This document shows, piece by piece, positions 4,212 through 31,630 of a stretch of 38,896 nucleotides of DNA (position 1 is its first letter; each line of letters starts with the position of its first letter). Below the pieces are notes generated by a model that made no database searches, was not told where the DNA came from, and saw only the letters and a list, made by a program, of their open reading frames with translations. This DNA is from a virus. The translations under genes and the position numbers were made by a program. The stretch covers positions 1-38,896 of IMG/VR virus record IMGVR_UViG_3300026320_000017, one strand, 5' to 3'.

Positions 4212-6505
4212 TACTCACCCTTCTTAGGTTGGGTCTTAGCTTTGAGAGCGGCGGCCTTCTTGTCTAGATCGAGCTTTTGTTCCCCTTGTACTTTAGATTG
4301 TTGAAGCTGTTGCTCTCCTTGACGCGATTGAAGCTCTAGCTCCATTTGGCTTTGTTCTCTAGCAAGCTGGGCATTCTGAGCATGTTCCTCTTGTTTAGCT
4401 TGGATATCTTGTTGCTTCCCCGCCATATCCATTTGCATCTTGGCGGTGTCTCCACTCAATTTGAGACGTATCTCTTGAGACTTCATTTGAAGCTCAAGTT
4501 GTTTGATTTGCATATCAAGAGCAGCTAATTGCTTCTTGTTTTCAAGTTCCGCTTGCTTCATTTGAAGCTCCATTTGGAACTTCTGCTGCTCAAACTGCAT
4601 ACCTTGTTGTTGAGCTTGCATATCAATTTGAGCCTTGGCCTTATCTCCTTCAACCTTAGCCTGTACCGCGGCCATCTTAGGATCAGGCGGCGGGGGAGCA
4701 GGTGGTTTATTCTCTAGTCCATCGAGTTGTTTATCAATCATACCCTCGATGTCCGCGGCATTATGGAACCTAGATACGCCCCATTTGAGTAGGCCCAAGA
4801 CAATCGGCTTAGTTTCAGGAATCTGAGCCGTCATGGGGAGAGCATTTTGAAGATACATAGATACAGTACTGAGGAATTCAGTAGCATCCTTCTTCTCCAT
4901 ATCGTAATCCGCTTGGGCCATAGACCCAGCTTGTATCTTAATTCTCCATTGGAATCCCTCTTCTGACTTGAGAAGAGCTATAGCGCTGGGGATATACAGA
5001 TCATTATCGGTATTGGTAATTCCTGATTTGCGAATCAAGATTTCCGGCGAGAAGTGTTTAACCTGGATCTCAGCCTTGATCCTGAGTATCTCAGAGGCGT
5101 AGGTACCCACCTCATCCTGCTGCTTCTTGATACGGATGGAGGCGAATTTCGCCTTGATCTCCTGAGCCCCCAAAGTTTCAGAAGCTTTGGAAGCCCCCCG
5201 AACGATGTCCGAAATGCCCGTGAGCTCATAGATTTGAGCCTTAATTTGATCTCTGGAGAGCATCAGCCGCTCTTGAGCCTTGACTATCTCCTCCAGGGGC
5301 ATCCAAGTAACCGTCCCGGCGATCCCCCCTTGTTCCGCGAACATTGCCCAATTATCTACGGGGATCATTTGATTATCTGATCCAGCCATCATATTGGCTA
5401 GGGAACCATAATTCTTCTTGTCATAAACCCCTACAGCCTTAATAGCTTCATTGATAATGGAAATGCGATTATTAACCGTGTCTAATTCACTATATTGGTC
5501 CTGGACCATATAGTAATCTGGCCGGGGCATCAACTCATTAGTAAGGGTATTGGCAAATAGGGGGGTGGGACATGGCTCGAAGCACTCTAGATTGAGAAAA
5601 TCCTCACGAGTATCCAAAATCTCTGGGCATTCTTCAGTAAACCAAATAATCTTGCGCTCTTCTCGATCCCAAATCTCATAAATCTTGCACTTCTCAATAG
5701 CCTCATGTTGTACTACGCCTTTATCATTGTCACCAATGGTAGGGGTAGGGGCAAAAGACACTAATTTAGTCTTAGCTGAGCCAAAGCGCTTCTTCATTTG
5801 CGTTTCGCTCAGGTAAACCGCCCGCGCCGTCCATCGCCTCTCCGACCAAACTCGGCATGGGGACCAAAGGAAGTCACTAAAATGAACGTAATCCACTGCT
5901 ACCCGTTGATCTTTGATCCTCTTCAACGGAATAGCTTGCCCGGCCGGCTGGGGGTCACGAGTAGAGGGGTCTTGCTCCGCCGGGGGAGCAATAAACCCAT
6001 CGTTACCGCCCTCCGGGCCGGGAAATTGACTGTCTGTATCATTGGTAAGGGAACCCCCTTCAGTCTCCGGTATGTCCTCGGTGTCCGTCTCCAATCGTAG
6101 CCATGCCGTACCTAGTCCAGCTACTAAGCGATCTTGTACATTTAGCTTCATCACAGTGGAGAACGTGTCCATAGGATCATTAAGATCTTGTTGAAGCATT
6201 CTCTCCATGACTAGGGCTGCTACCCTAGCGACTTGATCTCTATAGTCTGGGTATTTCCTCGATACTGAAGCCTTAGGGGGCTGGGAGTATAGGGCCGACT
6301 CCATTATCCCCACGTTTGCCCAGAAGATATTGAACTTGCGGAATTCCGAATTGATAGCATCACGCTCGTCCAGGTACCGGTCCATGGAGTCCTTGGCCCG
6401 CCGTTCAAAGTTCTTGCGGGATTTCTTCGCATAGGTAATCTCCGTTGACCACCGCTCATGCGGGGTTAAAGAATCCGGATCACGAATGGGGGCAGATACG
6501 TCCAT
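4211..6505 (-). CDS. Portal protein (P22-type)
   Basis: The protein has 764 residues. The N-terminal part (SLTPHERWSTEITYAKKSRKNF, then a YLDERD segment and FNIFWANVGIMESALYSQPPK) is the characteristic start of P22-like portal proteins. A middle acidic Pro/Gly insert around residues 150-190 is probably a surface loop. The last ~170 residues are a long Gln/Lys/Met-rich coiled coil, consistent with the barrel or tail-ward extension of large podovirus portals. The portal forms the dodecameric DNA channel at one capsid vertex and docks the terminase. It follows terL with a one-base overlap, the standard order terS-terL-portal. Confidence 0.85.
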   Translation of the reverse strand: MDVSAPIRDPDSLTPHERWSTEITYAKKSRKNFERRAKDSMDRYLDERDAINSEFRKFNIFWANVGIMESALYSQPPKASVSRKYPDYRDQVARVAALVMERMLQQDLNDPMDTFSTVMKLNVQDRLVAGLGTAWLRLETDTEDIPETEGGSLTNDTDSQFPGPEGGNDGFIAPPAEQDPSTRDPQPAGQAIPLKRIKDQRVAVDYVHFSDFLWSPCRVWSERRWTARAVYLSETQMKKRFGSAKTKLVSFAPTPTIGDNDKGVVQHEAIEKCKIYEIWDREERKIIWFTEECPEILDTREDFLNLECFEPCPTPLFANTLTNELMPRPDYYMVQDQYSELDTVNNRISIINEAIKAVGVYDKKNYGSLANMMAGSDNQMIPVDNWAMFAEQGGIAGTVTWMPLEEIVKAQERLMLSRDQIKAQIYELTGISDIVRGASKASETLGAQEIKAKFASIRIKKQQDEVGTYASEILRIKAEIQVKHFSPEILIRKSGITNTDNDLYIPSAIALLKSEEGFQWRIKIQAGSMAQADYDMEKKDATEFLSTVSMYLQNALPMTAQIPETKPIVLGLLKWGVSRFHNAADIEGMIDKQLDGLENKPPAPPPPDPKMAAVQAKVEGDKAKAQIDMQAQQQGMQFEQQKFQMELQMKQAELENKKQLAALDMQIKQLELQMKSQEIRLKLSGDTAKMQMDMAGKQQDIQAKQEEHAQNAQLAREQSQMELELQSRQGEQQLQQSKVQGEQKLDLDKKAAALKAKTQPKKGE

Positions 6506-7935
6506 TATTGAATCCTCGAAGCGATTCGATTGAGATGGGCTTCTCTTTCTAGGTGAAGAGTATCGAGGTTGTACCCCGGCAAATATATTTGATGGCCGGG
6601 GAGGGACTGCAAGTGCCCACGTAGGTCGTCGTCCGCCCTGGAATAGTCTTGGATGAGTACGTGCGGGCTAGCTACTACGCACATGTACCCGAACGCATCG
6701 GCAAAGTCGCTGGCCCAATCGTGTATTGGTTGTTCGGAGAATATCTGCTTCTCCTCGTCCCATTCCCTCCGATACGCCTTCAGCGCCTCTAGCAAATCGC
6801 CAGTTACAGAGAGGTCTGGAACGTCAGGGGAAGCAGGAGTACAGTCAATCGTAATAGTGGGGAAGACCTTCCGTGTCGCCGCGATCCGATCCCTGACTTT
6901 ATGATTGGGGACGATCCTGGGGGAGATCCCCGCTAGAGCAAACTGCTCTAGTATTGATTTGCCTGTTTGGAGGTTCTTCGCCCTAGCATCATGGGGAAGC
7001 CATACCTCCCCCACGCCCCCGCCCTCTAGCCTCGCTGCATCGGCGAATGAGTGGAGGGAAGAGATATGGTAGTCTATGTCCTGCCCCGTAGTAGCTTCTA
7101 CATTTACAATTATAATTTGGCCATGTTTGTTTACTTGCCACGCTATCCGTACCGTAGCGTCAGTAAACCCTAGGTCATATACAAAATTCGTGGGGAGCAG
7201 GGGATCATACAGAGGGGCTAGGGGATCACCTTCAAAATTGTACGCTCGTTGCTCGCTAAATAGTGTATTGACCTCGTCCGCATATATTGCCCCCTTAAGG
7301 GCGCTATCAAACGAGCACAAATACTCTTGAGCGAACTCCTCTTTGTCTAAGTCCTTCCGTAACTCAGCTAGTTCTTGATCGGGGAGGATATTGGAAGTTA
7401 GTGCTGAGAGGTTAGTTATATGATATTCGGAGGGGTTGAGCTGGGCTTTACGGAATACTTCATGGAATAGGTTCCGTCCTCTGGGGGTAGAGGCAAATAC
7501 ACCCCACCCCATGCGGTCAGACAGTGCGGGGCGGATAATCTGACTGAATACCGAGGGTCGAAATAACGCGTACTCATCCAACACCGCCCCGTCCAAATAC
7601 ATACCCCGCAGGGAATCAGGATTGTCCGCGCCGAGGCAGTAGATAACGGCATCGTTTTGTAGGGTAATCTTCAGTTCAGACTCGCTGGGGGGCTTCTGCA
7701 GGAAGGGGAGGGAATAATCCTTCAAGTATTGCCAGCTGACTCTCTTCGACTGCGTAAACGTGGGGCCAACATAGGCATATTGCGGCCGGGGGAGCAATTG
7801 CTGTCTAGCATCTAGGATTAGATCATTTACTAAAGCCACGGTTTTCCCCGCTCTCCGATGAGTATTCAGTACCGCCCACCGTTGGCTACGGTTATGGAAG
7901 GGGAGGAACTGTTCCCGCGGTGCGTAGGGGAGCAC
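6505..7935 (-). CDS. terL: Terminase large subunit
   Basis: The protein has 476 residues, a usual TerL length. It shows a Walker A motif HRRAGKT at residues 26-32, a Walker B AVLDE at 117-121, and a coupling motif STPRG near residue 149. The C-terminal RNase-H-like nuclease begins at YDLGFTDATV, whose Asp is the first metal ligand, and ends with DWASDFADAF supplying the late Asp ligands. It pumps DNA into the prohead through the portal and cuts concatemers. It sits one base after terS and overlaps portal by one base. I cannot tell from the sequence alone whether packaging is headful or cos type. Confidence 0.93.
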   Translation of the reverse strand: MLPYAPREQFLPFHNRSQRWAVLNTHRRAGKTVALVNDLILDARQQLLPRPQYAYVGPTFTQSKRVSWQYLKDYSLPFLQKPPSESELKITLQNDAVIYCLGADNPDSLRGMYLDGAVLDEYALFRPSVFSQIIRPALSDRMGWGVFASTPRGRNLFHEVFRKAQLNPSEYHITNLSALTSNILPDQELAELRKDLDKEEFAQEYLCSFDSALKGAIYADEVNTLFSEQRAYNFEGDPLAPLYDPLLPTNFVYDLGFTDATVRIAWQVNKHGQIIIVNVEATTGQDIDYHISSLHSFADAARLEGGGVGEVWLPHDARAKNLQTGKSILEQFALAGISPRIVPNHKVRDRIAATRKVFPTITIDCTPASPDVPDLSVTGDLLEALKAYRREWDEEKQIFSEQPIHDWASDFADAFGYMCVVASPHVLIQDYSRADDDLRGHLQSLPGHQIYLPGYNLDTLHLEREAHLNRIASRIQ

Positions 7936-7936
7936 A

Positions 7937-8365
7937 TCAATCCTTCACTTTGGCCTCTACGTCTAGTGCAACTTGAGCTAGCTCGGGATGTAGTCTATAG
8001 GCTAGCCTTTGAGCAGATACCCAAGGCATATCATCTAATCTAGCTCTGTTATTAGTGGCTAACTCCTCTGATATGGGGTTAATTGTAGTGGGGATCATTC
8101 TAGCGTACAGAGTATAGAACCTGCCTAGGTTCTTATCCGCCCATAGAGCTAATCTGGGGATGCCCCCAATAATCTCGAAAGCTCGCTGAAATGATTCCGC
8201 AGCCTTAGCCCCTTTCAGTGGTTTAGCTAACTTGGTAGAGTGTAAGCCTCTCTCTATGAGAGTGGTTAGTTCTTTGCTCACACCTTCTTCTAGACCTAGA
8301 TCTTTCAGTTCGGATGCTAAGTCAGCGATTTGACTAGCTACGTCATCTTGGGGAGGATCATTCAT
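7937..8365 (-). CDS. terS: Probable terminase small subunit
   Basis: This 142-residue protein is mostly helical. Its centre (FEIIGGIPRLALWADKN, then GRFYTLYARMIPT) resembles small terminase-like proteins found upstream of terL in podoviruses. The N-terminus is acidic and lacks an obvious HTH that I can delineate by eye. It is the first gene of the leftward morphogenesis operon and ends one base before terL. No Shine-Dalgarno sequence precedes the ATG at 8365. Instead a promoter-like pair places the expected transcription start at or beside the ATG (see the promoter entry), so a leaderless message is possible. Assignment is mainly by position plus motif memory. Confidence 0.65.
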   Translation of the reverse strand: MNDPPQDDVASQIADLASELKDLGLEEGVSKELTTLIERGLHSTKLAKPLKGAKAAESFQRAFEIIGGIPRLALWADKNLGRFYTLYARMIPTTINPISEELATNNRARLDDMPWVSAQRLAYRLHPELAQVALDVEAKVKD

Positions 8366-8372
8366 GTTTCGG

Positions 8373-8401
8373 AGTATACGCGCGGTAGGGGAGCAAGTAA
8401 A
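8373..8401 (-). promoter_or_regulatory. Candidate late promoter for terS operon
   Basis: Reading the minus strand, TTTACT (8401-8396) is followed after 17 bases by TATACT (8378-8373), a good sigma70-like -35/-10 pair. The usual start point, about seven bases downstream, falls on or next to the first base of the terS ATG (8365). Confidence 0.45.
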
Positions 8402-8440
8402 TATTATTTTACGTTGGTTTTATACCCTCACAATCTTTAA

Positions 8441-8661
8441 CTATTTACTATGTAGTTGGTACTACCCATTTTTACCCTCTCATTTTTATAACCGTATCCT
8501 TCCACTATTTACTATGTAGTTGGTACTACCCATTTTTATCCCCACAATCGGCAAGTCTACCCCTATTTACTATTTAGTTGGTACTACCCATTTTTATAGA
8601 TATATTTGTAAAGTCTACTCACTATTTACTATTTACTATGTAGTGCGTCATTTTTACCCTC
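8441..8661 (+). repeat. Four iteron-like direct repeats
   Basis: A unit of about 38 bp beginning CTATTTACTATGTAG and continuing TTGGTACTACCCATTTTTA occurs at 8441, 8505 and 8563 (in the last, TTTAG replaces TGTAG), with a shortened, diverged copy at 8629. Spacing is 58-66 bp, about six helical turns. Each intact unit contains the inverted pair GTAGT-TGGT-ACTAC (TTAGT in the third). The position just upstream of the terS promoter and the spacing suggest operators or replication iterons. The intervening sequences are unrelated, AT-rich and without a convincing gene. Confidence 0.7.
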
Positions 8662-8757: not shown

Positions 8758-8938
8758 GTACGCTAGCGTACTATATCCTCCTATACCGTATCCTCCTATA
8801 CCGTATCCTCCTATACGGTACGCTAGCGTACTAATACCCGGCGCCTACTCTCACCCTAGCCTCTCCACCCACCCGGCGCTAAAGTACGCTAGCGTATAGT
8901 ACCGTACGCTAGCGTATCGTATACTCCTATACGATACG
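8758..8938. repeat. Palindrome and 15-bp tandem repeat cluster
   Basis: The perfect 14-bp palindrome GTACGCTAGCGTAC occurs at 8758-8771 and 8818-8831. One-mismatch copies (last C to T) lie at 8884-8897 and 8904-8917. Between the first two are three tandem 15-bp units TATCCTCCTATACCG at 8774, 8789 and 8804. The cluster ends in a perfect hairpin with 11-bp arms (8913-8923 and 8928-8938) around CTCC. No gene is visible. It resembles a protein-binding array or an origin/partition-type site; function is unknown. Confidence 0.75.
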
Positions 8939-9203
8939 GTGGAGAATGAAAGTTGGCGGCCGGGGGAGAAAAAACTCCTAGCGGAGCGCGAGCGAAAAGT
9001 AAAGCTTGAAATCGTAACTAAAAAAACGTTGGATAGAGAAATAGGACTTTAGGAGGGTTTTTCTCGTATCGCTATTTATAGACGATTTTTAGGGGTCGAA
9101 AAAGTATGAAAAAAATCCTCCTAAAACTACCCTCTTCCTTATATAAGATTTTAAATTATCTATCTATAATCCTATTCTACTATTCTCCCTATAGAATCCT
9201 ACT

Positions 9204-9240
9204 AGGAAGAACCTAGGAGCTTAGGAGCTTAGGAAGAACC
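9204..9240 (+). repeat. Short nested direct repeats
   Basis: AGGAAGAACC at 9204-9213 and again at 9231-9240 flanks two tandem copies of TAGGAGCT. No gene overlaps it. It is part of the AT-rich, CA/TG-free non-coding stretch 9109-9535, which also contains a hairpin around 9356-9375 (AGGACGAT ... ATCGTCCT). Confidence 0.6.
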
Positions 9241-9535
9241 TTTATAACTAAAACGATATAAGTTAATTACTTCTCTATCTAAGTAATTTAAGGGTTTCCC
9301 CTAATAAAATATCCTCCTATCCTCCTATAATAGAGGCTAGGAAGAAAAAGCTAGGACGATAAAAATATCGTCCTACGATCTACCTAGTTTTTCCGAGCTT
9401 TTTTCCTTACCCTTCTAACCCTTACTTACCTTTATAAAAACCTTAGACCTAGACCGACGCTCGGAGCGCTCTTCCCGAAGAGCTCTTTAGGCGAGGGTCT
9501 CTCCCCCGCGTAACCCTAACCCTAGGAAAATATCT

Positions 9536-10030
9536 ATGCGTAAGTTTATCCTCTCCTTCCCCGGCGCTGCTCCGCGGGAGTTCGTCGCTAAGACGTATTC
9601 GGTCTTCCCTAAGACCGGATGGTTCGACCTCGCGCTCGGCGACGGAGGCGCGACCGTCCGCGCGACGACGACCTCCGGCCGGGGGAAATCGAAGACGAAT
9701 AACTTCTACCTCCTTTTCGTAGAAGAGCTCTTCCCCCGCGGCTCCGGAAAGACCCTATTTTGGACGAGGTTATCGGCCGAGGAGTTCGCCCTAGCCCGCG
9801 ACGGCCGGACGCGGCTATACGATCCGCTCGTCTCCGTCCCGGCGGGGGAGGAGGCTCCCCCGGCCGCCGAGCCCTCTCCCGGCCCCGTAGAGCCCGCTAC
9901 GGCGCGTCCGGCCGGGTTCGGGGGTACGGAGACCGCCCCCGTCGGGGACGACCCCGTAGCGCTCGCGGCGCGGGCCGCGCGGGCGAACGGGAAGCGCGCT
10001 CGGCGCGTCCGGGAAGCGACGACGGTCTAA
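9536..10030 (+). CDS. Unknown protein with restricted amino-acid alphabet
   Basis: I do not recognise this 164-residue protein. Residues 1-100 look folded, with alternating hydrophobic strands and two Trp. Residues ~100-140 are Ala/Pro/Glu/Gly-rich, and the last ~20 are basic (ARAARANGKRARRVRE), a plausible nucleic-acid-binding tail. It contains no Cys, His or Gln and no Met after the start, because the gene lacks CA entirely and has TG only at the start, one Ala-Ala junction and two Trp codons. GC content is much higher than in neighbouring genes. An AGGAAA ribosome-binding site lies before ATG, after a CCCTAACCCTAGG leader. It is followed by its own terminator, so it is a one-gene unit. A longer overlapping frame at 9760-10317 is judged spurious. 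Confidence 0.7.
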   Translation: MRKFILSFPGAAPREFVAKTYSVFPKTGWFDLALGDGGATVRATTTSGRGKSKTNNFYLLFVEELFPRGSGKTLFWTRLSAEEFALARDGRTRLYDPLVSVPAGEEAPPAAEPSPGPVEPATARPAGFGGTETAPVGDDPVALAARAARANGKRARRVREATTV

Positions 10031-10037
10031 AGACCCT

Positions 10038-10060
10038 AGACCCTTCGGGGTCTTTACTTT
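10038..10060 (+). terminator. UUCG-loop terminator
   Basis: The stem AGACCC/GGGTCT (10038-10043 and 10048-10053) closes a TTCG tetraloop and is followed by TTACTTT. This is a classic stable hairpin eight bases after the stop of the 9536 gene. Confidence 0.75.
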
Positions 10061-10083
10061 ATCCTCCTATCCTCCTATATAAT
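10053..10083 (+). promoter_or_regulatory. Candidate promoter of the 10115 gene
   Basis: TATAAT at 10078-10083 is preceded by a weak TTTACT (10053-10058, spacer 19) and a doubled TCCTCCTAT motif. The following CTAG-T-CTTCCCTAACC is shared with the start regions of the genes at 11006 and 13966, which supports a common promoter-leader type. Confidence 0.5.
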
Positions 10084-10114
10084 CTAGTCTTCCCTAACCT
10101 CCCGAGAAACTACC

Positions 10115-10300
10115 GTGTACTTTACCGCTCCTACCTTTTCGACCCCGAACGGGATTTTCTCGAAGCCGGCGGACCTTTCCCTAGCGGAGGCGCTCGCCGA
10201 GGTCCGTCGCGTCCCCGAGCGAGCGATCTTCGACGAAGCCGGCCGGCTCGTCCGGGATACCGTCCCCGGTACGCTCCGAGTTCGGATCGAGCGCGCCTAA
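10115..10300 (+). CDS. Small unknown protein with GTG start
   Basis: This 61-residue protein is unrecognised. It runs MYFTAPTFSTPNGIFSKPAD, then an amphipathic acidic/basic helix (LAEALAEVRRVPER), then a short beta-like end. It contains no Cys, His, Gln, Trp or internal Met, in keeping with the absence of CA and TG from its reading frame. The only TG is in the GTG start, which follows a weak CCCGAG ribosome-binding stretch. It stands alone between its own promoter-like box and a strong hairpin. The low-TG constraint makes the start codon choice itself uncertain; an upstream non-ATG start after 10087 is possible. Confidence 0.55.
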   Translation: MYFTAPTFSTPNGIFSKPADLSLAEALAEVRRVPERAIFDEAGRLVRDTVPGTLRVRIERA

Positions 10301-10310
10301 TTAGACTCGT

Positions 10311-10354
10311 CGGATAAGGGCTTTAGCCCTTATCCGAATAGTTTACGCTATTCG
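10311..10354 (+). terminator. Paired hairpins after the 10115 gene
   Basis: A perfect 11-bp stem CGGATAAGGGC/GCCCTTATCCG with loop TTTA spans 10311-10336. It is immediately followed by a second stem CGAATAG/CTATTCG (10335-10354, loop of six), so the two compete by two bases. There is no long T-run, so this may be a terminator or an RNA structure in the leader of the next gene. Confidence 0.55.
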
Positions 10355-10395
10355 ATCCCCTAACCCCCCTAACCCCCCTAACCCTCTAGGAGAAT

Positions 10396-10749
10396 ATTAT
10401 CTCTTCCCCTTATAAATTCGCCGCTCGGCGCTCGGCCGACGGCGCCGTAGAATACGGTATTTCTTCCCTCCGTTCTAGGTCGGGACCGTTCGGAGGGATT
10501 TTCTATACCCTCTCCGAATTACGGTCCTACCTCGACGAGATCGACTCCGAGAATTCCGGTCTTACCCCGGACGAAATCGAGTTAGAAAAAGTCGAGACGC
10601 TAAAGGAAATAGAGGCTCTAGAAGCCTATACTAAGGAACGCGGGGAAATTCTCGCGGTCCTAGTCTATTCGACCGTTCCCCTTTCGGATACGCGCGATCC
10701 GGCCGCTATTCTTTACGAGCTAATTAACCGTTCGGCGAACGGCCGCTAA
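10396..10749 (+). CDS. Unknown protein with apparent ATT/ATC start
   Basis: A 117-codon frame ends at TAA 10747-10749 and is bounded upstream by an in-frame TAG at 10387. It contains no ATG, GTG or TTG before the last codons. The sequence CTAGGAGAATATTATC offers AGGAG (10388-10392) followed by ATT at 10396 or ATC at 10399, so initiation at an AUU/AUC codon is the simplest reading. The protein begins ISSPYKFAARRS; its middle is acidic and helical (DEIELEKVETLKEIEALEAY). It has no Cys, His, Gln, Trp or Met. Coding is supported by the long frame, coherent composition, the ribosome-binding site and the terminator after the stop. Function is unknown. Confidence 0.6.
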   Translation: MISSPYKFAARRSADGAVEYGISSLRSRSGPFGGIFYTLSELRSYLDEIDSENSGLTPDEIELEKVETLKEIEALEAYTKERGEILAVLVYSTVPLSDTRDPAAILYELINRSANGR

Positions 10750-10758
10750 CCCGCTCCT

Positions 10759-10798
10759 ATCGGCGCCGATCTACCCCCGATCGGCGCCGATCTTTTAT
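10759..10798 (+). terminator. Terminator from duplicated palindrome
   Basis: Two copies of the palindrome ATCGGCGCCGAT (10759-10770 and 10780-10791) are separated by nine bases and followed by CTTTTATT. Either copy can fold alone, or the two can pair as a 12-bp stem. It lies ten bases after the stop of the 10396 gene. Confidence 0.7.
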
Positions 10799-10805
10799 TG
10801 CCCTA

Positions 10806-10869
10806 TAGTTAGGTACTATGGTAGTTAGGTACTATGGTAGTTAGGTACTATGGTAGCTAAGTACTATGT
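10806..10869 (+). repeat. Four tandem 16-bp repeats
   Basis: TAGTTAGGTACTATGG is repeated exactly at 10806, 10822 and 10838, with a diverged fourth copy (TAGCTAAGTACTATGT) at 10854. The core GGTACTA is also found in the 8441-8661 repeats, so the two arrays may bind the same factor on both sides of the CA/TG-free island. The rest of 10870-10950 shows no gene. Confidence 0.8.
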
Positions 10870-10950
10870 GTGCGGCAGCGTAGCCAGCCTTTACAGGCGA
10901 ATTCAAAATTTTCATTTCCTCCCCAGGATTCCCCTCAAATAAAATCGACC

Positions 10951-11262: not shown

Positions 11263-13377
11263 CTAGAACTTGCTAACGCTAATAGCCCACTTAGCAGCTC
11301 GTTCCATTTCCTTAGTCACTTCCGGGCCGGACAGGCGCCTCATTTTGTCCCCATCTATAATCCAGGCCCATCGCTGGGTATTAGGATTGGCACCGTACTT
11401 GCGCCGTTCGTCTTTAATCCACCCTGCTTTCTTCATAACAGTAGTTACAGTTTTAGCTGCTTTCTTATCCATATCAGGGATTCCCTCTTTGCTCATCAAC
11501 AAAACTATAGTCTGGTAATCTACGCATATAAATTTCTCCTCACTTTCCTGTAAGTCCTTGAGAACTATAAATGCCGCGGCTTCCATAGAATTAGATGATG
11601 CCATAATTGCCCTCTGTCGTCTTTCATTCATCGGCGGGCGCCAGGTAGCGAAGTCTATGTGCTCCCCCTCTCGCACCCAAATTGAGAAATCCTCCATTAC
11701 TTCATCTATATCAATAATTCGATGAAGCTCCGACCAATCCTCCTCTGTTACAGTTAATTCATTAGAACATTCGATATACCACATTCGCCTATCCTCAAAG
11801 CCATCAGTGGGGACATCCTCTAGGGCATTACAAGTAATTATCATCCCCGCTCTATTCTCCACAGGATAACTGTCCATGCCCTTCGGCTCAATAATGATGA
11901 ATTCATCCCCTAGAAAACGTTTGATAGCGTTCATCGCCGCTACCTTGCTAGAAGAATGGGAACTACTAATCATGAATTCATTTAGTATTACCAACCGCTT
12001 ATTCTCTAATTGTTTATTGAAGCTACTCACGAATACGTTAGCATCGATACTACTAGTATTGGTAGCCCCTAACAATCTATAGGCTATCTTGGAGAACCAT
12101 CCCTTACCCACCCCTCGCTTACTACTGAACAAAACTGGAAACGATGTAGGTTTACCATTACTATACTTGAGATACCTAATATATGATCGCAATAGTTCTA
12201 AATCACTGGGGATGCACATATTGGCTAGTTGACTAATAACCCTATTTGCTGCCCCGGTACGGCCGCTTCCATTAGGCCAAATGCCCCCCGGTACGTACCC
12301 ATTATAGTAAACCCCATCCTCCCTTTGTATGAACTCCTCCCCCATATATTCATAAGCTGGATTCAATACCGTAATCTTCTTATTGCTATCCATCCATATC
12401 ATATGACCGTATACGGTGGTTACCGTCTTTCCTTTCATTATCTTCTTGTTAATACTTTGGTAGAAATCCCTAGCTTTGTTAGTACTGCGAACTACCTTAT
12501 CAGCTCGATCTAAGGTGGATCCTCCCCTAGTGCAAAATACAGCCTTATCGAGCATTCTACTAAGCAAATCTTCATGTTCCTCCCCTTGATATTCCTCAGC
12601 TTCGTCAACTATCCTTCTCAGTTCTTTGTTACCATGTTCTCGTAGATAGTCATCTGGGCCCCAGTCGAGTCCACTAACGGCTTTGGGCAAATTGGCTAAT
12701 CGAACATCTTTAACTCCCAGAATATGCCTAAGTCTGAAGGCTAAGGTATCCCGAGCTTGAGCAACTTCAGGTTTCCAAGTATTAGAGTCGAACAGAATTA
12801 CATTACAAAAGCGGCTGAAATCTACGTCATACTTAGCATGGAGTAGCTCCATCCCCTTCTTGGAACTGGCAAAGCTCCAAACTCCATTAAGACCTATACA
12901 AGGAAGATTAAGCCATCTATGAACGGACTTGGCCTTAATCATAGACTCTACGTGAATAACAATTTGCCCGTCAGGAAGATTGTACCAACTACGAGGCTCC
13001 CCATCGGTAAGTGGCCGTATAGGTTCGAAGTGAAGGACATTCGGTCGGCCGTCGGGGGCAATCACCTTAGGCGGTGGCTCTTTCCCGTGCCAAAGAGTAG
13101 GCGTACCCAAGAATCTAACTAACTCATAAGGGTCCGGATCGTCTTTGTTCTTAAAATATGGATTTCCGTGGGGATCCAAATACCGTAGCATAATGTACGG
13201 TCGGCCGGCGGCCAAGGCGTATCGGTACCCCCGTTGCTCTAACAGTATAGAGCTGGAGAATGGAACTAAACCATCGGGGAAGTCCGCAGGTTCTAAACAA
13301 CGTTCGTTGAGGTACTCCTTGAGTAATTTTACATCTTCGGGATTTATGAAAGTGGCATTCTTGAAGGGGGAGGGCAT
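11263..13377 (-). CDS. Primase-helicase (DUF3854 + DUF5906-type)
   Basis: The protein has 704 residues. The N-terminal half includes a TOPRIM-like DUF3854-type region around residues 140-215 (IVIHVESMIKAKS, then CIGLNGVW and NVILFDSN). The C-terminal half is a superfamily-3-like ATPase of the DUF5906 kind, with Walker A SSKRGVGKGWFSK near residue 420 and Walker B RLVILNEFM near 460, a downstream MIITCN sensor and an Arg-rich FEDRRMWYIE. It should unwind and prime phage DNA. It is transcribed leftward, opposite to all other replication genes. ATG 13377 is preceded by GGAGTAAGG. No other primase or replicative helicase is in the window. Confidence 0.85.
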   Translation of the reverse strand: MPSPFKNATFINPEDVKLLKEYLNERCLEPADFPDGLVPFSSSILLEQRGYRYALAAGRPYIMLRYLDPHGNPYFKNKDDPDPYELVRFLGTPTLWHGKEPPPKVIAPDGRPNVLHFEPIRPLTDGEPRSWYNLPDGQIVIHVESMIKAKSVHRWLNLPCIGLNGVWSFASSKKGMELLHAKYDVDFSRFCNVILFDSNTWKPEVAQARDTLAFRLRHILGVKDVRLANLPKAVSGLDWGPDDYLREHGNKELRRIVDEAEEYQGEEHEDLLSRMLDKAVFCTRGGSTLDRADKVVRSTNKARDFYQSINKKIMKGKTVTTVYGHMIWMDSNKKITVLNPAYEYMGEEFIQREDGVYYNGYVPGGIWPNGSGRTGAANRVISQLANMCIPSDLELLRSYIRYLKYSNGKPTSFPVLFSSKRGVGKGWFSKIAYRLLGATNTSSIDANVFVSSFNKQLENKRLVILNEFMISSSHSSSKVAAMNAIKRFLGDEFIIIEPKGMDSYPVENRAGMIITCNALEDVPTDGFEDRRMWYIECSNELTVTEEDWSELHRIIDIDEVMEDFSIWVREGEHIDFATWRPPMNERRQRAIMASSNSMEAAAFIVLKDLQESEEKFICVDYQTIVLLMSKEGIPDMDKKAAKTVTTVMKKAGWIKDERRKYGANPNTQRWAWIIDGDKMRRLSGPEVTKEMERAAKWAISVSKF

Positions 13378-13510: not shown

Positions 13511-13585
13511 TGGGGAGCTAACGGGTAGGACGATTCTAGGCCTATCCCCGGCCCGACGATAGGCCTCCTCAGCGAGGAAAGCGGC

Positions 13586-13652
13586 CTAGGAGCCGCGCGC
13601 GGACGGAGCTCGTCTCCCTATAGCGTCCTCCTCGAAAAACGGCTCTAATCGC
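13586..13652 (+). promoter_or_regulatory. Two-copy upstream element, copy 1
   Basis: CTAGGAGCCG (13586), GAGCTCGT (13606), then 25 bases later CTCGAAAAA (13631) and GCTCT recur in the same order and almost the same spacing at 26577-26645. Both copies precede the first gene of a rightward unit. The surrounding 13515-13681 is also poor in CA/TG (two CA, no TG). Confidence 0.6.
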
Positions 13653-13684
13653 CTCTATTCGATCCGCATTTTAGGAGCTAAATT

Positions 13685-13965: not shown

Positions 13966-14442
13966 ATGAACCAAGCCTTGAGAGTTATCCAAGAACATGA
14001 ATTTGATTTGGTTAAGCTTCGTGAAGTAGCGAATAGCGACAAATTCAATAAAATTACTGAAGCTATTTTGAAGCACTACTCTAATTTTGCTTCCCCAGAT
14101 ATCCTGGGAAAGTTAATTTATTTCCACATTTACGCTTCCGATTTGGATCATTACGAAATTGAGTTAGTAGACGATCTTCGTAGTCTCAATCCTAGTACGG
14201 AGAATGTAGAAGAATTTCTCCAATACAATAACAAGGATTACTTCTTTGTATGGGAATTTGAAAAAGATTACAAAATCAAAGTTTGCGTAGCTACCTATCT
14301 CAAATCCGAGTCTCCTGAATATTGCCGCAAAGTTAAGGTAGGAACTAGGATGGTAGAAGAGGGCATCTATACTTTGGAATGCGCTCCCCCGGTAGAGATT
14401 GATCCAAGCGATCTTCCGTCCCCCACTATTAAGATCGACTGA
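13966..14442 (+). CDS. Acidic hypothetical early protein
   Basis: This unrecognised protein has 158 residues. It is acidic overall, with an N-terminal helix (ALRVIQEHEFDLVKLREV), a mixed middle (LIYFHIYASDLDHYEIELVDD) and a C-terminal beta-rich part ending in a Pro-rich acidic tail (PVEIDPSDLPSPTIKID). No catalytic motif or membrane helix is evident. Its start has a GGAG ribosome-binding site inside a leader shared with other small genes, so it probably begins its own transcript that continues into the HNH nuclease gene one base downstream. Function unknown. Confidence 0.6.
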   Translation: MNQALRVIQEHEFDLVKLREVANSDKFNKITEAILKHYSNFASPDILGKLIYFHIYASDLDHYEIELVDDLRSLNPSTENVEEFLQYNNKDYFFVWEFEKDYKIKVCVATYLKSESPEYCRKVKVGTRMVEEGIYTLECAPPVEIDPSDLPSPTIKID

Positions 14443-14443
14443 A

Positions 14444-14833
14444 ATGAACCCGAGACTGTTGCTCCCCCTCCTGGTAGCTAGCAGTCTCGCTAGCGCTCAA
14501 GAACTAGATCCCTTGAAAGAGTACCGCTATTGCGGCGCTCCTGATAGGGATAATCAAGGAATGATCCTACGTAGGGATGACGTCTTGATCGCCTTCCAAC
14601 GTATCCATCCTTGCCCCTCTACTGGCCTAACGTCGGGGCCGTGTAGAGGATGGGCTAAGGATCATGTGATCCCCTTATCATGTGGCGGATGCGACTCTGT
14701 TTACAATCTCCAATGGCTCTCTGACGCTCTCAAATCCGCCGGGGGAACCGGCCCCAAAGATAGATGGGAGCGGTTGGTTTATGCCAACAAGAATATCCCC
14801 AACCCCGCCTGTACATTTAGGGTAGTAAGATGA
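14444..14833 (+). CDS. Secreted HNH endonuclease
   Basis: Starting at ATG 14444, the 129-residue protein has a clear signal peptide (MNPRLLLPLLVASSLASAQE, cleavage probably after ASA). The mature part is a small HNH nuclease: DHVIPLSCGGCDSVYNLQWL supplies the His-Asn-type core, with further Cys residues (YRYCGAPD, HPCPSTG, GPCRGW) for disulfides or metal. Such exported nucleases act in the periplasm. In a phage they could degrade DNA of superinfecting phages or released host DNA. A longer reading from 14399 with a non-ATG start is rejected because it would hide the signal peptide. It overlaps the next gene by four bases (ATGA). Confidence 0.8.
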   Translation: MNPRLLLPLLVASSLASAQELDPLKEYRYCGAPDRDNQGMILRRDDVLIAFQRIHPCPSTGLTSGPCRGWAKDHVIPLSCGGCDSVYNLQWLSDALKSAGGTGPKDRWERLVYANKNIPNPACTFRVVR

Positions 14834-24093: not shown

Positions 24094-24849
24094 ATGAAAC
24101 CCTTTCAATTTGAAGGCAAAGAGGTCACTCTAAACCTGACCCATAAGAACATTCTCAGCGATCTAACCAAAGCTCCCCCGTTCGATCCTAAGTTAATCGA
24201 CCCCTCCCACCCTTTCTACATGCTAGTTAAGCAAAAGGGACAGATGGAGGCATATCTCAATAAAGTAGTAGAATTACTCAAGGGGCTTCCAAAAGGTTTA
24301 GACGTATTTGAATTCTGCGGAGGAATGGGAATCATAGCTGAAGCTATGTGGGATTTGATTAATCCCCATTCTTGGACCGGAATAGATTTAGATCAAGCGT
24401 GTATAGATGTAAATATTTGCCATAGACTAGATTACAATATAGTATACGGAGATATGTACGAACCAGATTGGTTTATCCACTGGGTTTATCCTCCAGATAA
24501 TACTTTGGTATACATGGATTGGCCCACTATGACTCTACGCAAGATGTGGAACGAACCAAAGGTAAGCCAATTTATGGAACATCTAGCCGGACAGGACGGC
24601 CTTCGTCCCCAGTATATAGGTATCACCGACATCGAATGCGGGTGGATCCATCTCCCTAATCATTGGCCTCATTATATGAGACTGTTCGATATATACCTGG
24701 ATATTGATGAACGACCTTCAACTACTGGGCTACGTAATGGCTATACAGCCATATATGAAGGTTATATGAGGGAACGATTTAAGTATCAATTGATCAACCG
24801 TACCGTAGGCGGAGGTGGAGAATACTTCTTATTTGAAAGAATGCTATGA
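24094..24849 (+). CDS. Methyltransferase-fold protein with atypical motif IV
   Basis: The protein has 251 residues. VFEFCGGMGIIAEAMWDL resembles the SAM-binding motif I (D/E-x-F-x-G-x-G), and WTGIDLDQACIDVN the motif II acidic strand. Then VYGDMYEPDW precedes TLVYMDWPTMTLRKMW, in the position where DNA methyltransferases have DPPY or NPP(Y/W). Its reading DWPT is unusual. It lies immediately upstream of, and overlaps by four bases, the hydroxymethyl-dU kinase gene, so it may act in the same base-modification pathway or as a lesion-specific variant. No good ribosome-binding site precedes ATG 24094. Substrate and activity are unknown. Confidence 0.55.
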   Translation: MKPFQFEGKEVTLNLTHKNILSDLTKAPPFDPKLIDPSHPFYMLVKQKGQMEAYLNKVVELLKGLPKGLDVFEFCGGMGIIAEAMWDLINPHSWTGIDLDQACIDVNICHRLDYNIVYGDMYEPDWFIHWVYPPDNTLVYMDWPTMTLRKMWNEPKVSQFMEHLAGQDGLRPQYIGITDIECGWIHLPNHWPHYMRLFDIYLDIDERPSTTGLRNGYTAIYEGYMRERFKYQLINRTVGGGGEYFLFERML

Positions 24850-25421
24850 CTAAAATCATTAAAATACACGGCTGCTCCGGAGCGGGAAAGACTACAGCTG
24901 TGCGAGAATTGCTTCCCCTACTATATCCATCTGGTTATCATGATGGAGCTAAGGGCTATGTCGGATTTGTAGAGGGAGTGGAGAACCCTGTATACGTAGC
25001 GGGAAGTTACAAGAGTAACTGCGGAGGAGTAGATACAATTAACTCCGCCAAGGAGGTTATGAATTTGATAAACTTCCAAGTAAATGCTGGAAGTCATGTA
25101 ATATACGAGGGATTACTTCAATCCACTTACTACGGAATTATGGGTGAATGGTCGAAGCAATTTGGGGACAGATTCATCTATGCTTTCCTAGATACCCCTG
25201 TAGAACTGTGCTTGGAAAGAGTGTTAGCTAGGCGTAAAGCCAATGACTCTAAAAATAAATTTGATCCCCAACTGACTAGGGATAAATGGGAATCCATAGC
25301 TAGACTCAGAGAAAAGTTGTTATCGGGTAGCCTAGAACAATCCTCAGGCAAGAAGCACTTAGTAGTTGATCTTCGACATGAACATCCTATGCTTCCTCAG
25401 CTCCTAAATTTACTACAATGA
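24846..25421 (+). CDS. 5-hydroxymethyl-dU DNA kinase-like P-loop protein
   Basis: The protein has 191 residues. It begins with Walker A GCSGAGKTT (residues 9-17, Lys15). A conserved-looking HDGAKGYVGFVEG/PVYVAGSYKSNCGG region follows, then HVIYEGLLQSTYYG and FIYAFLDTPVELCLERVLAR with the lid arginines. This layout, including GSY-x-S-x-CGG-x-D, matches my memory of the P-loop kinases that phosphorylate 5-hydroxymethyl-dU in phage DNA. It would activate thymine analogues for the transferase-like proteins encoded at 21874 and 25729. An ordinary nucleoside kinase is the alternative, but the gene context favours the DNA kinase. Confidence 0.75.
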   Translation: MTKIIKIHGCSGAGKTTAVRELLPLLYPSGYHDGAKGYVGFVEGVENPVYVAGSYKSNCGGVDTINSAKEVMNLINFQVNAGSHVIYEGLLQSTYYGIMGEWSKQFGDRFIYAFLDTPVELCLERVLARRKANDSKNKFDPQLTRDKWESIARLREKLLSGSLEQSSGKKHLVVDLRHEHPMLPQLLNLLQ

Positions 25422-25501: not shown

Positions 25502-25732
25502 ATGGATTCTATTCAATATAATCGATTGAGAAGATTAGAGCTAGCTATTGAAGATGAAAAGGAAACTATACTCAAAGAATGTGGTTGGAGTATAGTCAAA
25601 GATCGACCCACTTCCCCCGCTTATTGGGAGAAATTGTTATCAGAAAGCCTCAGAGGTAGGTGGACCGCTCCTGACGTAGATTGTGCTATTAGACTTGAAA
25701 AATTTGATCTAGATTTAGGGAGTATAGGATGA
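25502..25732 (+). CDS. Small hypothetical protein
   Basis: This 76-residue protein is unrecognised. It is helical and charged (MDSIQYNRLRRLELAIEDEK, then ETILKECGW) with a Trp-containing, acidic C-terminal half (WEKLLSESLRGRW, DVDCAIRLEKFDLDLG). There is no membrane helix. It sits between the small membrane peptide and the second transferase-like gene, overlapping the latter by four bases, so it belongs to the base-modification cluster by position. It could be a partner of one of those enzymes, but nothing direct shows this. Confidence 0.5.
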   Translation: MDSIQYNRLRRLELAIEDEKETILKECGWSIVKDRPTSPAYWEKLLSESLRGRWTAPDVDCAIRLEKFDLDLGSIG

Positions 25733-26568
25733 CTCTCCCCGATACTGAAACACTTAATCGTGTCCTTATTTATTGGATCGAAGAACGGGATCGCGTCCAT
25801 TGTCTTAAAGCAAGCGACGCCCCTAAGCCTTGGTCAAACGATCCAATATTCCAAACTACTAGATTTTGTAACGTTCGTCGAGAACAAGACAAAGTTACAA
25901 TATGGATCAAAGATAATTGGCGTAATCCTTATGAAGATCACCCCAATCTAGCTTTTGCTATGTGCTTAGCTAGAGTAGTAAATTGGCCCCCTACTCTAAA
26001 ACATATTGGATTCCCGTTAGTATGGAACTCCCCTACATTTGTTCATAAAATGGACGAACTACAAACTAGCGGAAAGGTCTGGGGAGGAGCCTATATGGTT
26101 ACAGGCGGCTATTCTGCCGGCGGGGAAAGCAAACAAGTTATCATAGGTAGAGTGCTCAATGCGGCCTATAAAAACACCGTGCCCTTTCCCAAGGGGATAA
26201 AATGCGAAGAAGCATTCAATATAATCCAAGCAACCCCCGGCCTTGGTACGTTCTTGTCCGCGCAAGTTATAGCCGACTTGAAATATACCCCCTTGCTAGA
26301 TACGTCCCCCGATTGGCAAACGTTTTGCGCTCCAGGTCCAGGGTCAATAATGGGTTTAAACTTCCTCCACGGTAGGCCGCCCACTCAAAGTATTTCCCAT
26401 AAGCGATTTATCGAAGAAGTTAACGATGTCTCTGATTGGCTTAGTTACAAAGAAATTGTTAGTCTAACTGCTCACGATACTCAAAATTGCTTGTGCGAGT
26501 TTAGCAAGTACGTGCGTATTAAATACCTTGGCGGACGGGCGAAGAACGGATATAATGGAACCGCGTAA
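25729..26568 (+). CDS. Alpha-glutamyl/putrescinyl-thymine pyrophosphorylase-like protein
   Basis: The protein has 279 residues. The signature 'FQTTRFCNVRREQDKVTIWI' followed by 'NWRNPYEDHPNLAFAMCLAR' and 'VVNWPPTLKHIGFP' is what I recall for the aGPT-Pplase domain of phages with hypermodified thymine. A helix-hairpin-helix-like segment (EEAFNIIQATPGLGTFLSAQ) then precedes 'DTSPDWQTFCAPGPGSIMGLNFLHG'. These enzymes are DNA-glycosylase-like and transfer an amino acid or polyamine onto the pyrophosphorylated methyl group of thymine in DNA. With the 21874 protein it forms a two-transferase set next to the kinase. The exact product cannot be deduced. Confidence 0.75.
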   Translation: MTLPDTETLNRVLIYWIEERDRVHCLKASDAPKPWSNDPIFQTTRFCNVRREQDKVTIWIKDNWRNPYEDHPNLAFAMCLARVVNWPPTLKHIGFPLVWNSPTFVHKMDELQTSGKVWGGAYMVTGGYSAGGESKQVIIGRVLNAAYKNTVPFPKGIKCEEAFNIIQATPGLGTFLSAQVIADLKYTPLLDTSPDWQTFCAPGPGSIMGLNFLHGRPPTQSISHKRFIEEVNDVSDWLSYKEIVSLTAHDTQNCLCEFSKYVRIKYLGGRAKNGYNGTA

Positions 26569-26592
26569 AACGGGGTCTAGGAGCCGTTTTTT
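26567..26592 (+). terminator. Terminator after the modification cluster
   Basis: AAAACGG (26567-26573) pairs with CCGTTTT (26584-26590) around a ten-base loop and is followed by TT. It begins inside the stop codon of the transferase-like gene. The following 130 bases hold no gene but carry the second copy of a shared upstream element. Confidence 0.65.
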
Positions 26593-26645
26593 CCCGAGCT
26601 CGTAGGGTAGTAGCTCCCCCCTCGAAAAAAGCGCTCTGACAAGCG
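26577..26645 (+). promoter_or_regulatory. Two-copy upstream element, copy 2
   Basis: CTAGGAGCCG (26577), GAGCTCGT (26596), CTCGAAAAA (26621, exactly 25 bases later as in copy 1) and GCTCT repeat the arrangement at 13586-13652. It precedes a strong AGGAGG ribosome-binding site and the lipoprotein gene, so it probably carries or regulates a promoter. Confidence 0.6.
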
Positions 26646-26896: not shown

Positions 26897-27165
26897 GACC
26901 TATTAACCGCATTGCCGCCGAGATCGCGGTAGCAATGAAGGATATTAAGTTGAAGTCGGACCCAATATGGATTAAATGGTCCATCCCCTACGTTCATGCT
27001 ATGCTTCAAATTAGCTCCCCTAGCGATCAATATGGTCTGGAACCGGGGGAAGACATTATTCTCAGATTTCTCTCTAACGCTCAGGCGTGGAGGGGAGAAC
27101 AGGCCCGCCGAATCAAGGCGGAACTTAGGCTAGCAATGAAAGAGGCTTCCGATGCCCACAATTAA
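26887..27165 (+). CDS. Hypothetical protein upstream of dUMP hydroxymethylase
   Basis: This 92-residue protein is unrecognised. It contains an Ile/Ala-rich start (RPINRIAAEIAVAMKDI), a Trp-rich strand segment (DPIWIKWSIPYVHAMLQI) and a C-terminal basic helix (GEQARRIKAELRLAMKEAS). It is embedded between the lipoprotein and ThyA-like genes with overlaps of 10 and 14 bases, so translation is coupled. The composition suggests a soluble helical protein. Function unknown. Confidence 0.55.
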   Translation: MPVRPINRIAAEIAVAMKDIKLKSDPIWIKWSIPYVHAMLQISSPSDQYGLEPGEDIILRFLSNAQAWRGEQARRIKAELRLAMKEASDAHN

Positions 27166-28147
27166 TGCTAACAACGTTAACGATGCCTATGCTAACGCCC
27201 TATGGTCGTTATCCATAGATTCTAACTGGATTGAATCGGACAGCCGTAACGGCAAAGTACGGAAATTCATCGAACCCGTGCTAACTAAATACCGCTATCC
27301 ACACGAACGAGTGCTATTCGATCCGGTCAGGGACGCTAACCCATTTCTTCACTTATTCGAGGCTCTTTGGATGCTTAACGGTGGTAACGATGTCATTTTC
27401 CCTGCCCAATTTACCAAACAGTTTTTGGAATACAGTGACGATGGGGTTACTCTCCATGGTGCTTACGGCCATCGCTGGCGCAACCATTTTGGTCATGATC
27501 AGCTCGATAGTGCTATATACGAGCTGGCGACTAATCCCTCCTCACGCCGAGTTGTCATCGGTATGTGGGACCCGTACATTGACGACCACGTTGGTTACGC
27601 AGGAGGGAAAGATGTACCTTGTAATAGTCACGTGTATTTTAACGTGAAGGATAAAGAACTAGATATGACAGTATGTAACCGTAGCAATGATCTAGTATGG
27701 GGATGCTACGGGGCCAATGCAGTTCATATGTCTATCTTACACGAATATATGGCTCTTTCGTCCGGCATCCCTATAGGGTCATATTATCAATTCAGCAACG
27801 ATCTTCATCTATACGAGACTCATTTTAAATTCTTGGGTAAGCCCCCTAAAGATGAAGAAGTGGATGACCACTACGCTACGGGGAGGGTGGCTCACCAGCC
27901 ATTGTTCCGAGCACCAAGCGAACGGGGAGCATTTGACCAAGATGTACAGGATTTCGTTGAAAATCCTATGCAGAACTTGTTTAGAACCACCTTTATGAAG
28001 GACACCGCTGGTCCTATGTACCGAGCTTGGAAGTACTTCAAGAATGGACTACTCGAATCTGCTTTGAATACCGCTCGTCAAATCGAAGCTACGGATTGGC
28101 GTAAAGCTTCTGTAGAATGGATTGAGCGCCGAGTACCTAAATCATGA
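27152..28147 (+). CDS. ThyA-family enzyme, probably dUMP hydroxymethylase
   Basis: The protein has 331 residues and the thymidylate synthase fold. The catalytic Cys157 lies in VPCNSHVYF. The phosphate-binding and dUMP-binding stretch is CNRSNDLVWGCYGANAVH (Arg177, Asp180, Asn189), and NDLHLYETH supplies the late His219/Tyr221. It differs from cellular ThyA by having Asn for the His after the catalytic Cys and WGCYGAN in place of the usual FLGLPFN. I associate this form with phages carrying modified thymine. With a hydroxymethyl-dU kinase next door, making 5-hydroxymethyl-dUMP is likelier than making dTMP; biochemistry is needed to decide. Confidence 0.75.
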   Translation: MPTINANNVNDAYANALWSLSIDSNWIESDSRNGKVRKFIEPVLTKYRYPHERVLFDPVRDANPFLHLFEALWMLNGGNDVIFPAQFTKQFLEYSDDGVTLHGAYGHRWRNHFGHDQLDSAIYELATNPSSRRVVIGMWDPYIDDHVGYAGGKDVPCNSHVYFNVKDKELDMTVCNRSNDLVWGCYGANAVHMSILHEYMALSSGIPIGSYYQFSNDLHLYETHFKFLGKPPKDEEVDDHYATGRVAHQPLFRAPSERGAFDQDVQDFVENPMQNLFRTTFMKDTAGPMYRAWKYFKNGLLESALNTARQIEATDWRKASVEWIERRVPKS

Positions 28148-28641
28148 AGGATATCCCCTATCTTCATGAAGCCGGCGCAGTTAAGCGTTGGCATACCAAG
28201 CCTACCCTAAAGGACCAAGACTTGGCCTCCCACAGTTGGGGAGTTGCCACAATTTTGATGTACATTTTACCGGGGAATTACAACGTTCTCCGGGCGGCCC
28301 TAGTCCACGATCTTCATGAGAAAGAGGCTGGGGACATTCCATATCAATTCAAAAAATCGAATCCGAATGTATCCCACCAATATTCTCTCCAAGACCATTC
28401 GTTCCAGGAGAAATATGAGATCTCTACTGAGCTTCTAGAATTTGAACAAGAAGCCCTTAAGTGGGCCGATATGATGGAGTTACTCTTGTTTTGCCATAGA
28501 GAACTCCGTATGGGAAACCAATACTTCTCATCTACCCGTCAAGTAGCGGAGAAAACTTTGCGCGATATGGGTCATCCTAACGAACAAGCAAGAACTCTTT
28601 TCAACGAAGTAATCCACCATGACCGAGACTACCAAACTTAA
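28144..28641 (+). CDS. HD-domain 5'-deoxynucleotidase (YfbR-like)
   Basis: The protein has 165 residues and matches the YfbR layout: Arg15-Trp16, His30 (ASHSWGVA), the pair His55-Asp56, then Glu59 and Asp64 in HDLHEKEAGDIPYQFKK, with a later ALKWADMMELL supplying the last Asp. YfbR-type enzymes remove the phosphate from deoxynucleoside monophosphates. In a phage with hydroxymethyluracil DNA it could destroy dTMP so that thymine does not compete with the analogue, as specific dTMPases do in some hydroxymethyluracil phages. It is coupled to the ThyA-like gene by ATGA. Confidence 0.8.
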   Translation: MKDIPYLHEAGAVKRWHTKPTLKDQDLASHSWGVATILMYILPGNYNVLRAALVHDLHEKEAGDIPYQFKKSNPNVSHQYSLQDHSFQEKYEISTELLEFEQEALKWADMMELLLFCHRELRMGNQYFSSTRQVAEKTLRDMGHPNEQARTLFNEVIHHDRDYQT

Positions 28642-31193: not shown

Positions 31194-31194
31194 A

Positions 31195-31479: not shown

Positions 31480-31630
31480 TCTTGCTCTCCTGCGGTTGAT
31501 TATTAGCCTGATGAATGATCTTCATCAATAGGGGGTTGACCTCGTTCCAAGGTCTGAGTCCTACGGCGATACAAACTTGATCCAACTCCTGGGGAGTTAA
31601 TTCAATCTTAATTGTCGTGGGCAAATTCAC
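31448..31630 (-). CDS. Small hypothetical protein after tail spike
   Basis: This 60-residue protein contains IKIELTPQELDQVCIAVGLR, then PWNEVNPLLMKIIHQANNQ, two short helices like those of small phage chaperone-type proteins, and a polar Pro-rich tail. It overlaps the tail-spike gene by 23 bases and the next gene by 32. It is unrecognised. A spike-assembly helper would fit its position, but this is a guess. Confidence 0.5.
   Translation of the reverse strand: MNLPTTIKIELTPQELDQVCIAVGLRPWNEVNPLLMKIIHQANNQPQESKIDPLPTLPTN

Follow-up and report, generated by a model that had tools for sequence, protein, structure and literature searches.

The viral contig IMGVR_UViG_3300026320_000017 from IMG/VR, a phage record of 38,896 nucleotides analysed here over its whole length (the window), carries a plus-strand transcription unit from which the dinucleotide CA is entirely missing and TG nearly so. 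This island lies between the gene for the small terminase subunit (TerS) and a primase gene (11263-13377, minus strand). It is probably exempt from the thymidine hypermodification that the phage itself would carry out, and its most likely role is that of an immediate-early operon read from incoming hypermodified DNA. The link between the island and thymidine hypermodification is strongly inferred, and the immediate-early role of the unit moderately.

Counted base by base on the plus strand, CA is absent from 8871 to 10875 in the window (flanking CA at 8870 and 10876), and a CA-free stretch of 2004 nt would have a chance of about 10^-45 at the genome rate. Within 9109-10798, TG occurs only at 9537, 9568, 9620, 9761 and 10116, with two of the five held in start codons (ATG at 9536 and GTG at 10115) and two in Trp codons; the rate outside the island predicts 91 CA and 91 TG for this segment. 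The window's longest run without either dinucleotide measures 683 bp against about 77 expected, and the same statistic is near expectation for the other symmetric dinucleotide pairs tested. CA and TG alone are avoided in the island: TC and GA are not, and no further trinucleotide is missing from the core. CG (1.50) and TA (1.60) are both raised in the core, as would be expected if, with CA and TG banned, the remaining steps take up their share.

An earlier sequence-only reading of this DNA had claimed the absence of CA over 8872-10875 and the presence of only five TG in 9109-10798, and both counts are exact, including the assignment of four TG to start and Trp codons; its figure of about two hundred expected CA and TG compares with a computed expectation of about 182. 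It had argued from the frequency of CG that this is not ordinary CpG decay. It had also proposed that a sharp drop limited to this region and conserved in relatives would support selection. In sliding windows the drop is indeed sharp and local, the record as a whole being mildly CA/TG-poor (0.82) without genome-wide depletion, and it recurs at the equivalent place in diverged relatives. The present results go beyond that reading in three respects: the tight zone corresponds to one transcription unit, TG is avoided more strictly on the template strand, and a 5-hydroxymethyldeoxyuridine (5hmdU) DNA kinase is encoded by the phage, its known relatives acting at TG.

The island crosses genes and non-coding DNA, and neither composition nor the codon bias of a single gene explains it, as the sequence-only reading had held. 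With an expectation derived from the protein sequence and the phage's own codon usage, the three open reading frames (ORFs) of the unit, A, B and C, should together contain about 35 CA and 61 TG, and contain 0 and 5. The corresponding values are 0 CA and 4 TG against 16.7 and 30.8 for ORF A, and none of either against 10.8 and 19.4 for ORF C. Composition, codon bias, mutation and assembly are not the cause of the depletion, and the island sequence is shown to be under selection at the DNA level. Restriction-site avoidance, which concerns words of 4-8 bp across a genome, was considered and rejected, as only CA and TG are missing, no further trinucleotide is absent and the effect is limited to one unit.

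Direct DNA and protein searches with the window island found no relative in phages, plasmids or IMG/VR, and a primase-based search for relatives also found none. Relatives were obtained from IMG/VR through TerL and HMUDK_hel searches, and then through the island gene of one of them (G014), which belongs to the A' family. CA/TG-free runs measure 187-369 bp in four long relatives (G004, G014, G015 and G019) and lie directly next to TerS, on its upstream side, in every case, a position shared by 5/5 island-bearing genomes with TerS when the window is included. No other gene of the window, G004, G014 or G019 is as extreme an outlier in CA as the island genes of that genome. The search with the G014 gene led to three loci in other records (L159, L160 and L161), each of which shows this property too.

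In the A' genes of G014 and these three loci, the sole CA is an invariant His codon and the sole TG is the start codon. Pairs of orthologues differ at 22-89 of 450-480 nt and have acquired no new CA or TG, against 6-10 CA/TG-bearing codons expected under random synonymous change. Judged by these alignments, the island gene sequence is under purifying selection against CA and TG. The A' profile aligns collinearly with ORF A of the window (hhalign E 0.0022, probability 13%). A mutational origin or an artefact, such as CA-to-TA decay (of the repeat-induced point mutation type or by a deaminase), odd foreign DNA or an assembly error, would agree with the raised TA and the mild CA/TG poverty of the whole phage. 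It is nevertheless almost certainly wrong: CG is raised as much as TA, GC content reaches 68%, the frames are open and conserved, and orthologues from the independent metagenomes that supplied the island-bearing relatives diverge yet keep the rule.

The limits of the island coincide with those of a predicted transcript. A shared -10 region, TATAATAGAG, followed by CTAGG in most members, is present with small variations in the window, G014, G015, L159, L160 and L161, and a pattern scan with it returned only already known islands. In G014, G015 and the three L loci, 14 nt of CA/TG-free sequence precede the -10 box, and 0-8 nt follow the terminator before the zone ends. This match of the edges in five loci indicates that the zone is one predicted transcription unit. 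The window zone ends 1 nt past its terminator, the first TG of the right flank lying at 10799, one base past the terminator T run. The unit of the window runs from the -10 box through ORF A, ORF B and ORF C to the terminator (Table 1), and the position of the motif leads transcription to be expected to start near 9338. ORF A has a GC content of 69%. ORF C is preceded by AGGAG, 5' of ATT (10396) and ATC (10399), and its lack of the usual start codons implies that one of these rare ones is used if it is translated; an open frame of such length would arise by chance at about 0.03 per strand, and its GC content by codon position resembles that of other genes.

Upstream of the unit, CA stays absent as far as 8872, beside palindromes and 15-bp repeats that are candidate regulator or initiator sites. 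These elements at the left edge, together with the constant position beside TerS, could be taken to mark a packaging or replication site, where binding or cutting by terminase or an initiator requires unmodified DNA upstream of TerS; the contigs of the relatives G001 and G008 end just upstream of TerS, which is suggestive only. Such a site is very unlikely to account for an island that is 0.6-2 kb long, coincides with a -10 box and a terminator, has its gene on either strand relative to TerS, and in G019 shows a strand bias that fits transcription.

A strand bias is seen in the window as well. Its CA-free 2004 nt contain 0 TG on the template strand against 18 on the coding strand, and the ORF A orthologue of G019 contains 1 CA against 16 expected and 24 TG against 19 expected. 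In G019 the template strand alone is TG-free and the coding strand is normal. Taken together, the window and G019 make template-strand TG the strict ban. A depletion of TG in ORF A of G021 and in a 152-aa gene of G004, seemingly under the opposite strand rule, was traced to a preference for C-ending codons (CC raised; TA and AT low in G021).

A rule at the RNA level could produce a similar picture if the mRNA of the unit avoided CA (and UG) as targets of an RNase (of host or phage), of a toxin or of a defence directed at RNA, so that the gene would still be expressed during the destruction of other mRNAs. In favour of this, the zone and the predicted transcript match, and the strictest ban, which is the sole ban in G019, is on CA in the mRNA. 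However, most members avoid both CA and UG, which would take two unrelated RNA rules against one rule for duplex DNA. UA is enriched in the island, so that the cutter would need to spare it, and to our knowledge no RNase cuts CA and UG yet spares UA. The CA-free stretch of the window also reaches 456 nt upstream of the shared -10 box, and an RNA rule is on these grounds unlikely.

The phage encodes the gene set of phages with 5hmdU-derived hypermodification, namely a thymidylate-synthase-like hydroxymethylase, a 5hmdU DNA kinase and HMUDK_hel, together with a deoxynucleotidase. The best solved structures for the hydroxymethylase are cytidine monophosphate 5-hydroxymethylases, and orthologues of the kinase are present in relatives whose sequence covers the region. 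In the DNA of phages M6, ViI and phiW-14, resistant sites point to hypermodified T in TG or TC (PMC6449724). The purified M6 5hmdU kinase modifies TG in SP8 DNA (PMC6449724, cited there as unpublished), and SP8 DNA after kinase treatment is resistant at TG/TC sites (PMC7653180). Since the islands do not avoid TC, action at TG only is predicted for the kinases of this clade. Transcription by Escherichia coli RNA polymerase on a kinase-treated 5-hydroxymethyluracil template was 10% of that on the untreated 5-hydroxymethyluracil template (PMC6457204). With T7 RNA polymerase, uracils that carry bulky or charged groups are inhibitory in the template strand, whereas the non-template strand tolerates them better (PMC11550810). 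The strand rule in the islands is the rule that these polymerase experiments predict.

Another DNA-modifying enzyme of the phage might act on CA or TG and be avoided by the unit. The candidate is a 251-aa ORF (24094-24849, plus strand) that adjoins the kinase gene and shows S-adenosylmethionine-methyltransferase-like motifs by eye (FEFCGGMG, GIDLD, GDMYE and MDWPT). This is highly improbable, as the ORF has no family match and G004 has an island without a detectable copy of it. Orthologues of the ORF are present in G002, G014, G015, G019 and G021, and were not detected in G004 and G007-G009.

Exemption from thymidine hypermodification could operate as follows. The hydroxymethylase would make 5-hydroxymethyl-dUMP, which would be incorporated into DNA, and the 5hmdU DNA kinase and HMUDK_hel would load bulky or charged groups on T within TG. 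TG on one strand is CA on the other, and therefore both strands of a unit without CA and TG would be clear of hypermodified T. RNA polymerase would be hindered by bulky or charged groups when these are on the template strand. Unaltered host polymerase could read the exempt operon (ORF A, then B and C) right after DNA entry, and the remaining genome would wait for the ORF A product or for freshly replicated DNA. A need for it to be transcribed before the rest, on incoming hypermodified DNA, would be the simplest reason for exempting so small an operon. On balance, the locus appears to hold an exemption that is encoded in the base sequence at the level of a dinucleotide, is resolved by strand, and makes one immediate-early operon readable on otherwise hypermodified DNA; even the use of start codons and the choice of amino acids would be bent to it (His, Gln and Cys absent, and one gene lacking ATG, GTG and TTG altogether).

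The same exemption could respond to a different pressure, a host glycosylase or type IV restriction enzyme that attacks hypermodified T, with the unit, perhaps an anti-defence gene, staying intact or readable. This would fit the presence of the island in some members and its absence from close relatives with the same kinase, as well as the variable cargo in the slot, and the strictness on the template strand would agree with it if the damage consists of abasic sites. It is an improbable version of the exemption, since neither PADLOC nor any other search gave a match for the island proteins, a nuclease would still kill the phage through breaks elsewhere in its genome, and no such host system was identified.

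Several observations weigh against a hypermodification-exempt early operon. The close relatives G007, G008, G009 and G021 have the same kinase genes and no island. In a comparison set of 15 named phage records and four control loci (about 1.1 Mb) there was no CA/TG-free run above 112 bp, and the 112-bp run is at the start of a record and lacks every dinucleotide class tested. Barring that stretch, the longest run in kinase-bearing phages outside the clade (YuA, PaMx11, Sonora, ViI, phiW-14, Pam3, RHph_TM26, Golden and others) is at most 97 bp. The lack of an island in YuA/ViI/phiW-14-type phages and in close relatives indicates that it is not a general need of kinase-bearing phages. Other TATAATAGAG promoters in G014 and G015 lead into units with normal CA/TG content, which would therefore be used later or tolerate modification. 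With the zone starting close to the predicted transcription start, its extent does not by itself fully distinguish a rule for DNA from one for mRNA. For the early role, family and structure searches found no known fold or function for ORF A: the island proteins have no match in Pfam, PHROGs, NCBIfam or PADLOC, the predicted structure of ORF A has a pLDDT (predicted local distance difference test score) of 45, and the A' protein gave a moderate structure model with no significant fold match.

Table 1. Features of the island and of associated genes in the window
Feature	Position	Strand	Basis
CA-free stretch (no TG on the minus strand, the template for ORFs A-C)	8872..10875	+	Flanking CA positions
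Core zone, 0 CA and 5 TG (two in start codons, two in Trp codons, one other)	9108..10798	+	
Palindrome TACGCTAGCGTA, four copies, interspersed with 15-bp repeats TATCCTCCTATACCG; left edge of CA-free stretch	8758..8932	.	
Possible 37-aa ORF, GTG start, with TG but no CA; gene status uncertain	8939..9052	+	
Predicted promoter -10 region CCTATAATAGAGGCTAGGA (TATAAT at 9326-9331)	9324..9342	+	Motif common to relatives' island units
ORF A, 164 aa, ATG start, no His, Gln or Cys	9536..10030	+	Remote homologue of relatives' A' family
ORF B, 61 aa, GTG start, 0 CA, one TG (own start)	10115..10300	+	
Inverted repeat between ORF B and ORF C	10302..10345	+	
ORF C, about 117 aa, without any ATG, GTG or TTG	10396..10749	+	
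Strong intrinsic terminator, 13-pair stem then CTTTTATT	10759..10798	+	
Large terminase subunit (TerL)	6505..7935	-	PF03237 E 7e-8, phrog_2
Small terminase subunit (TerS), divergent from island	7937..8365	-	Position next to TerL and synteny
5hmdU DNA kinase (PF18748 HMUDK_HMUD1)	24846..25421	+	E 5.7e-7, score 29.7 against Pfam cut-off 27
HMUDK_hel / aGPT-PPlase-type hypermodification protein (PF18723)	25729..26568	+	E 2e-36
Thymidylate-synthase-like pyrimidine hydroxymethylase	27152..28147	+	PF00303 E 1.7e-20, phrog_5131 E 1e-107
YfbR-like 5'-deoxynucleotidase, probable nucleotide-pool enzyme	28144..28641	+	PF12917 E 1e-15

Shorter CA/TG-poor patches also occur outside the island. One (13511..13667, plus strand, runs of 59 and 97) lies in the leader of a rightward operon that starts with a 77-aa ORF at 13685, and a CA/TG-free run of 81 (26556..26637, plus strand) lies just 3' of the HMUDK_hel gene, with a counterpart at the equivalent place in G002. 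These two patches have TAGGAGCCG..GAGCTCGT..CTCGAAAAA in common. Short CA/TG-free runs are found in intergenic leaders of other operons in G002 (6013-6105) and G003 (6468-6615) too, and nine genomes contain 7 runs of at least 75 outside islands against fewer than 1 expected, some of the 7 in coding sequence. A promoter-wide rule was rejected, intergenic CA/TG avoidance across kinase-bearing phages being weak.

Repeat arrays with related cores flank the island on both sides (8439-8659 and 10806-10868), outside the CA/TG-free core; the cores are TAGTTGGTACTACCC (four copies) and TAGTTAGGTACTATGG (16-bp period). The motif GTACTACC, present near several islands, is not common to all and was set aside. 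A TATAATAGAG/TATAATAGG promoter-like element occurs about ten times in each of the genomes G014 and G015 (L139-L144), in several cases before structural or replication genes. Comparison of G004 (30733-33671) with G007, G008 and G009 marks a variable slot upstream of TerS, where an additional CA/TG-free unit, containing a 76-aa gene, is present in G004 and absent from these close relatives.

In the wider genome of the window, terminase, portal and tail genes lie on the minus strand, and PolA, an SNF2 helicase and nucleases on the plus strand. A promoter-like element for TerS, TTTAC(T/G)-N17-TA(T/G)A(A/C)T, is located at 8373-8401 (minus strand) and is conserved upstream of TerS in G004, G014 and G019. 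Its closeness to the start codon makes a leaderless or nearly leaderless mRNA likely, and its -35 hexamer lacks the TG and CA of TTGACA. Positions 14399-14833 (plus strand) encode a small protein whose N-terminus is signal-like; it contains Cys motifs and is weakly similar to HNH_5 (E 0.024).

Pseudomonas M6/YuA, Salmonella ViI and Delftia phiW-14 have the same gene set as the window (thymidylate-synthase-like hydroxymethylase, HMUDK and HMUDK_hel), with a TG/TC context given in the literature. The kinase-bearing phages examined outside the clade are without a CA/TG-free transcription unit. Comparable systems are known in other phages. T7-like phages have an early region without host restriction sites, which serves until an antirestriction protein is made; as proposed here, a first-expressed region is exempted by its sequence from an agent that affects the rest. 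There, however, a few host restriction sites are missing, whereas in the window a dinucleotide is missing from both strands and the agent would be the phage's own modification. Phage genomes also avoid restriction sites (palindromes), which is likewise selection against a short DNA word, but acts genome-wide on words of 4-6 bases, in contrast to one dinucleotide in one transcription unit. In SPO1/SP8-type phages, 5hmdU replaces T and transcription is under temporal control (also PMC6449724). Base modification is similarly tied to transcription control in these phages, but their modified base is uniform across the genome and no modification-free operon is known to have been described there. The sequence-only reading knew of no described phage element with such a property, and the literature searched (open-access PMC) likewise contains no description of a modification-exempt or CA/TG-free unit.

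To the question of how unmodified host polymerase reads early genes on bulky hypermodified DNA, this locus suggests a simple answer: the first operon does without the modified dinucleotide, most of all in its template strand. Such a genomic signature might reveal, without phage culture, in which sequence context a DNA-modifying enzyme acts, which gene is expressed first and where its transcript begins and ends.

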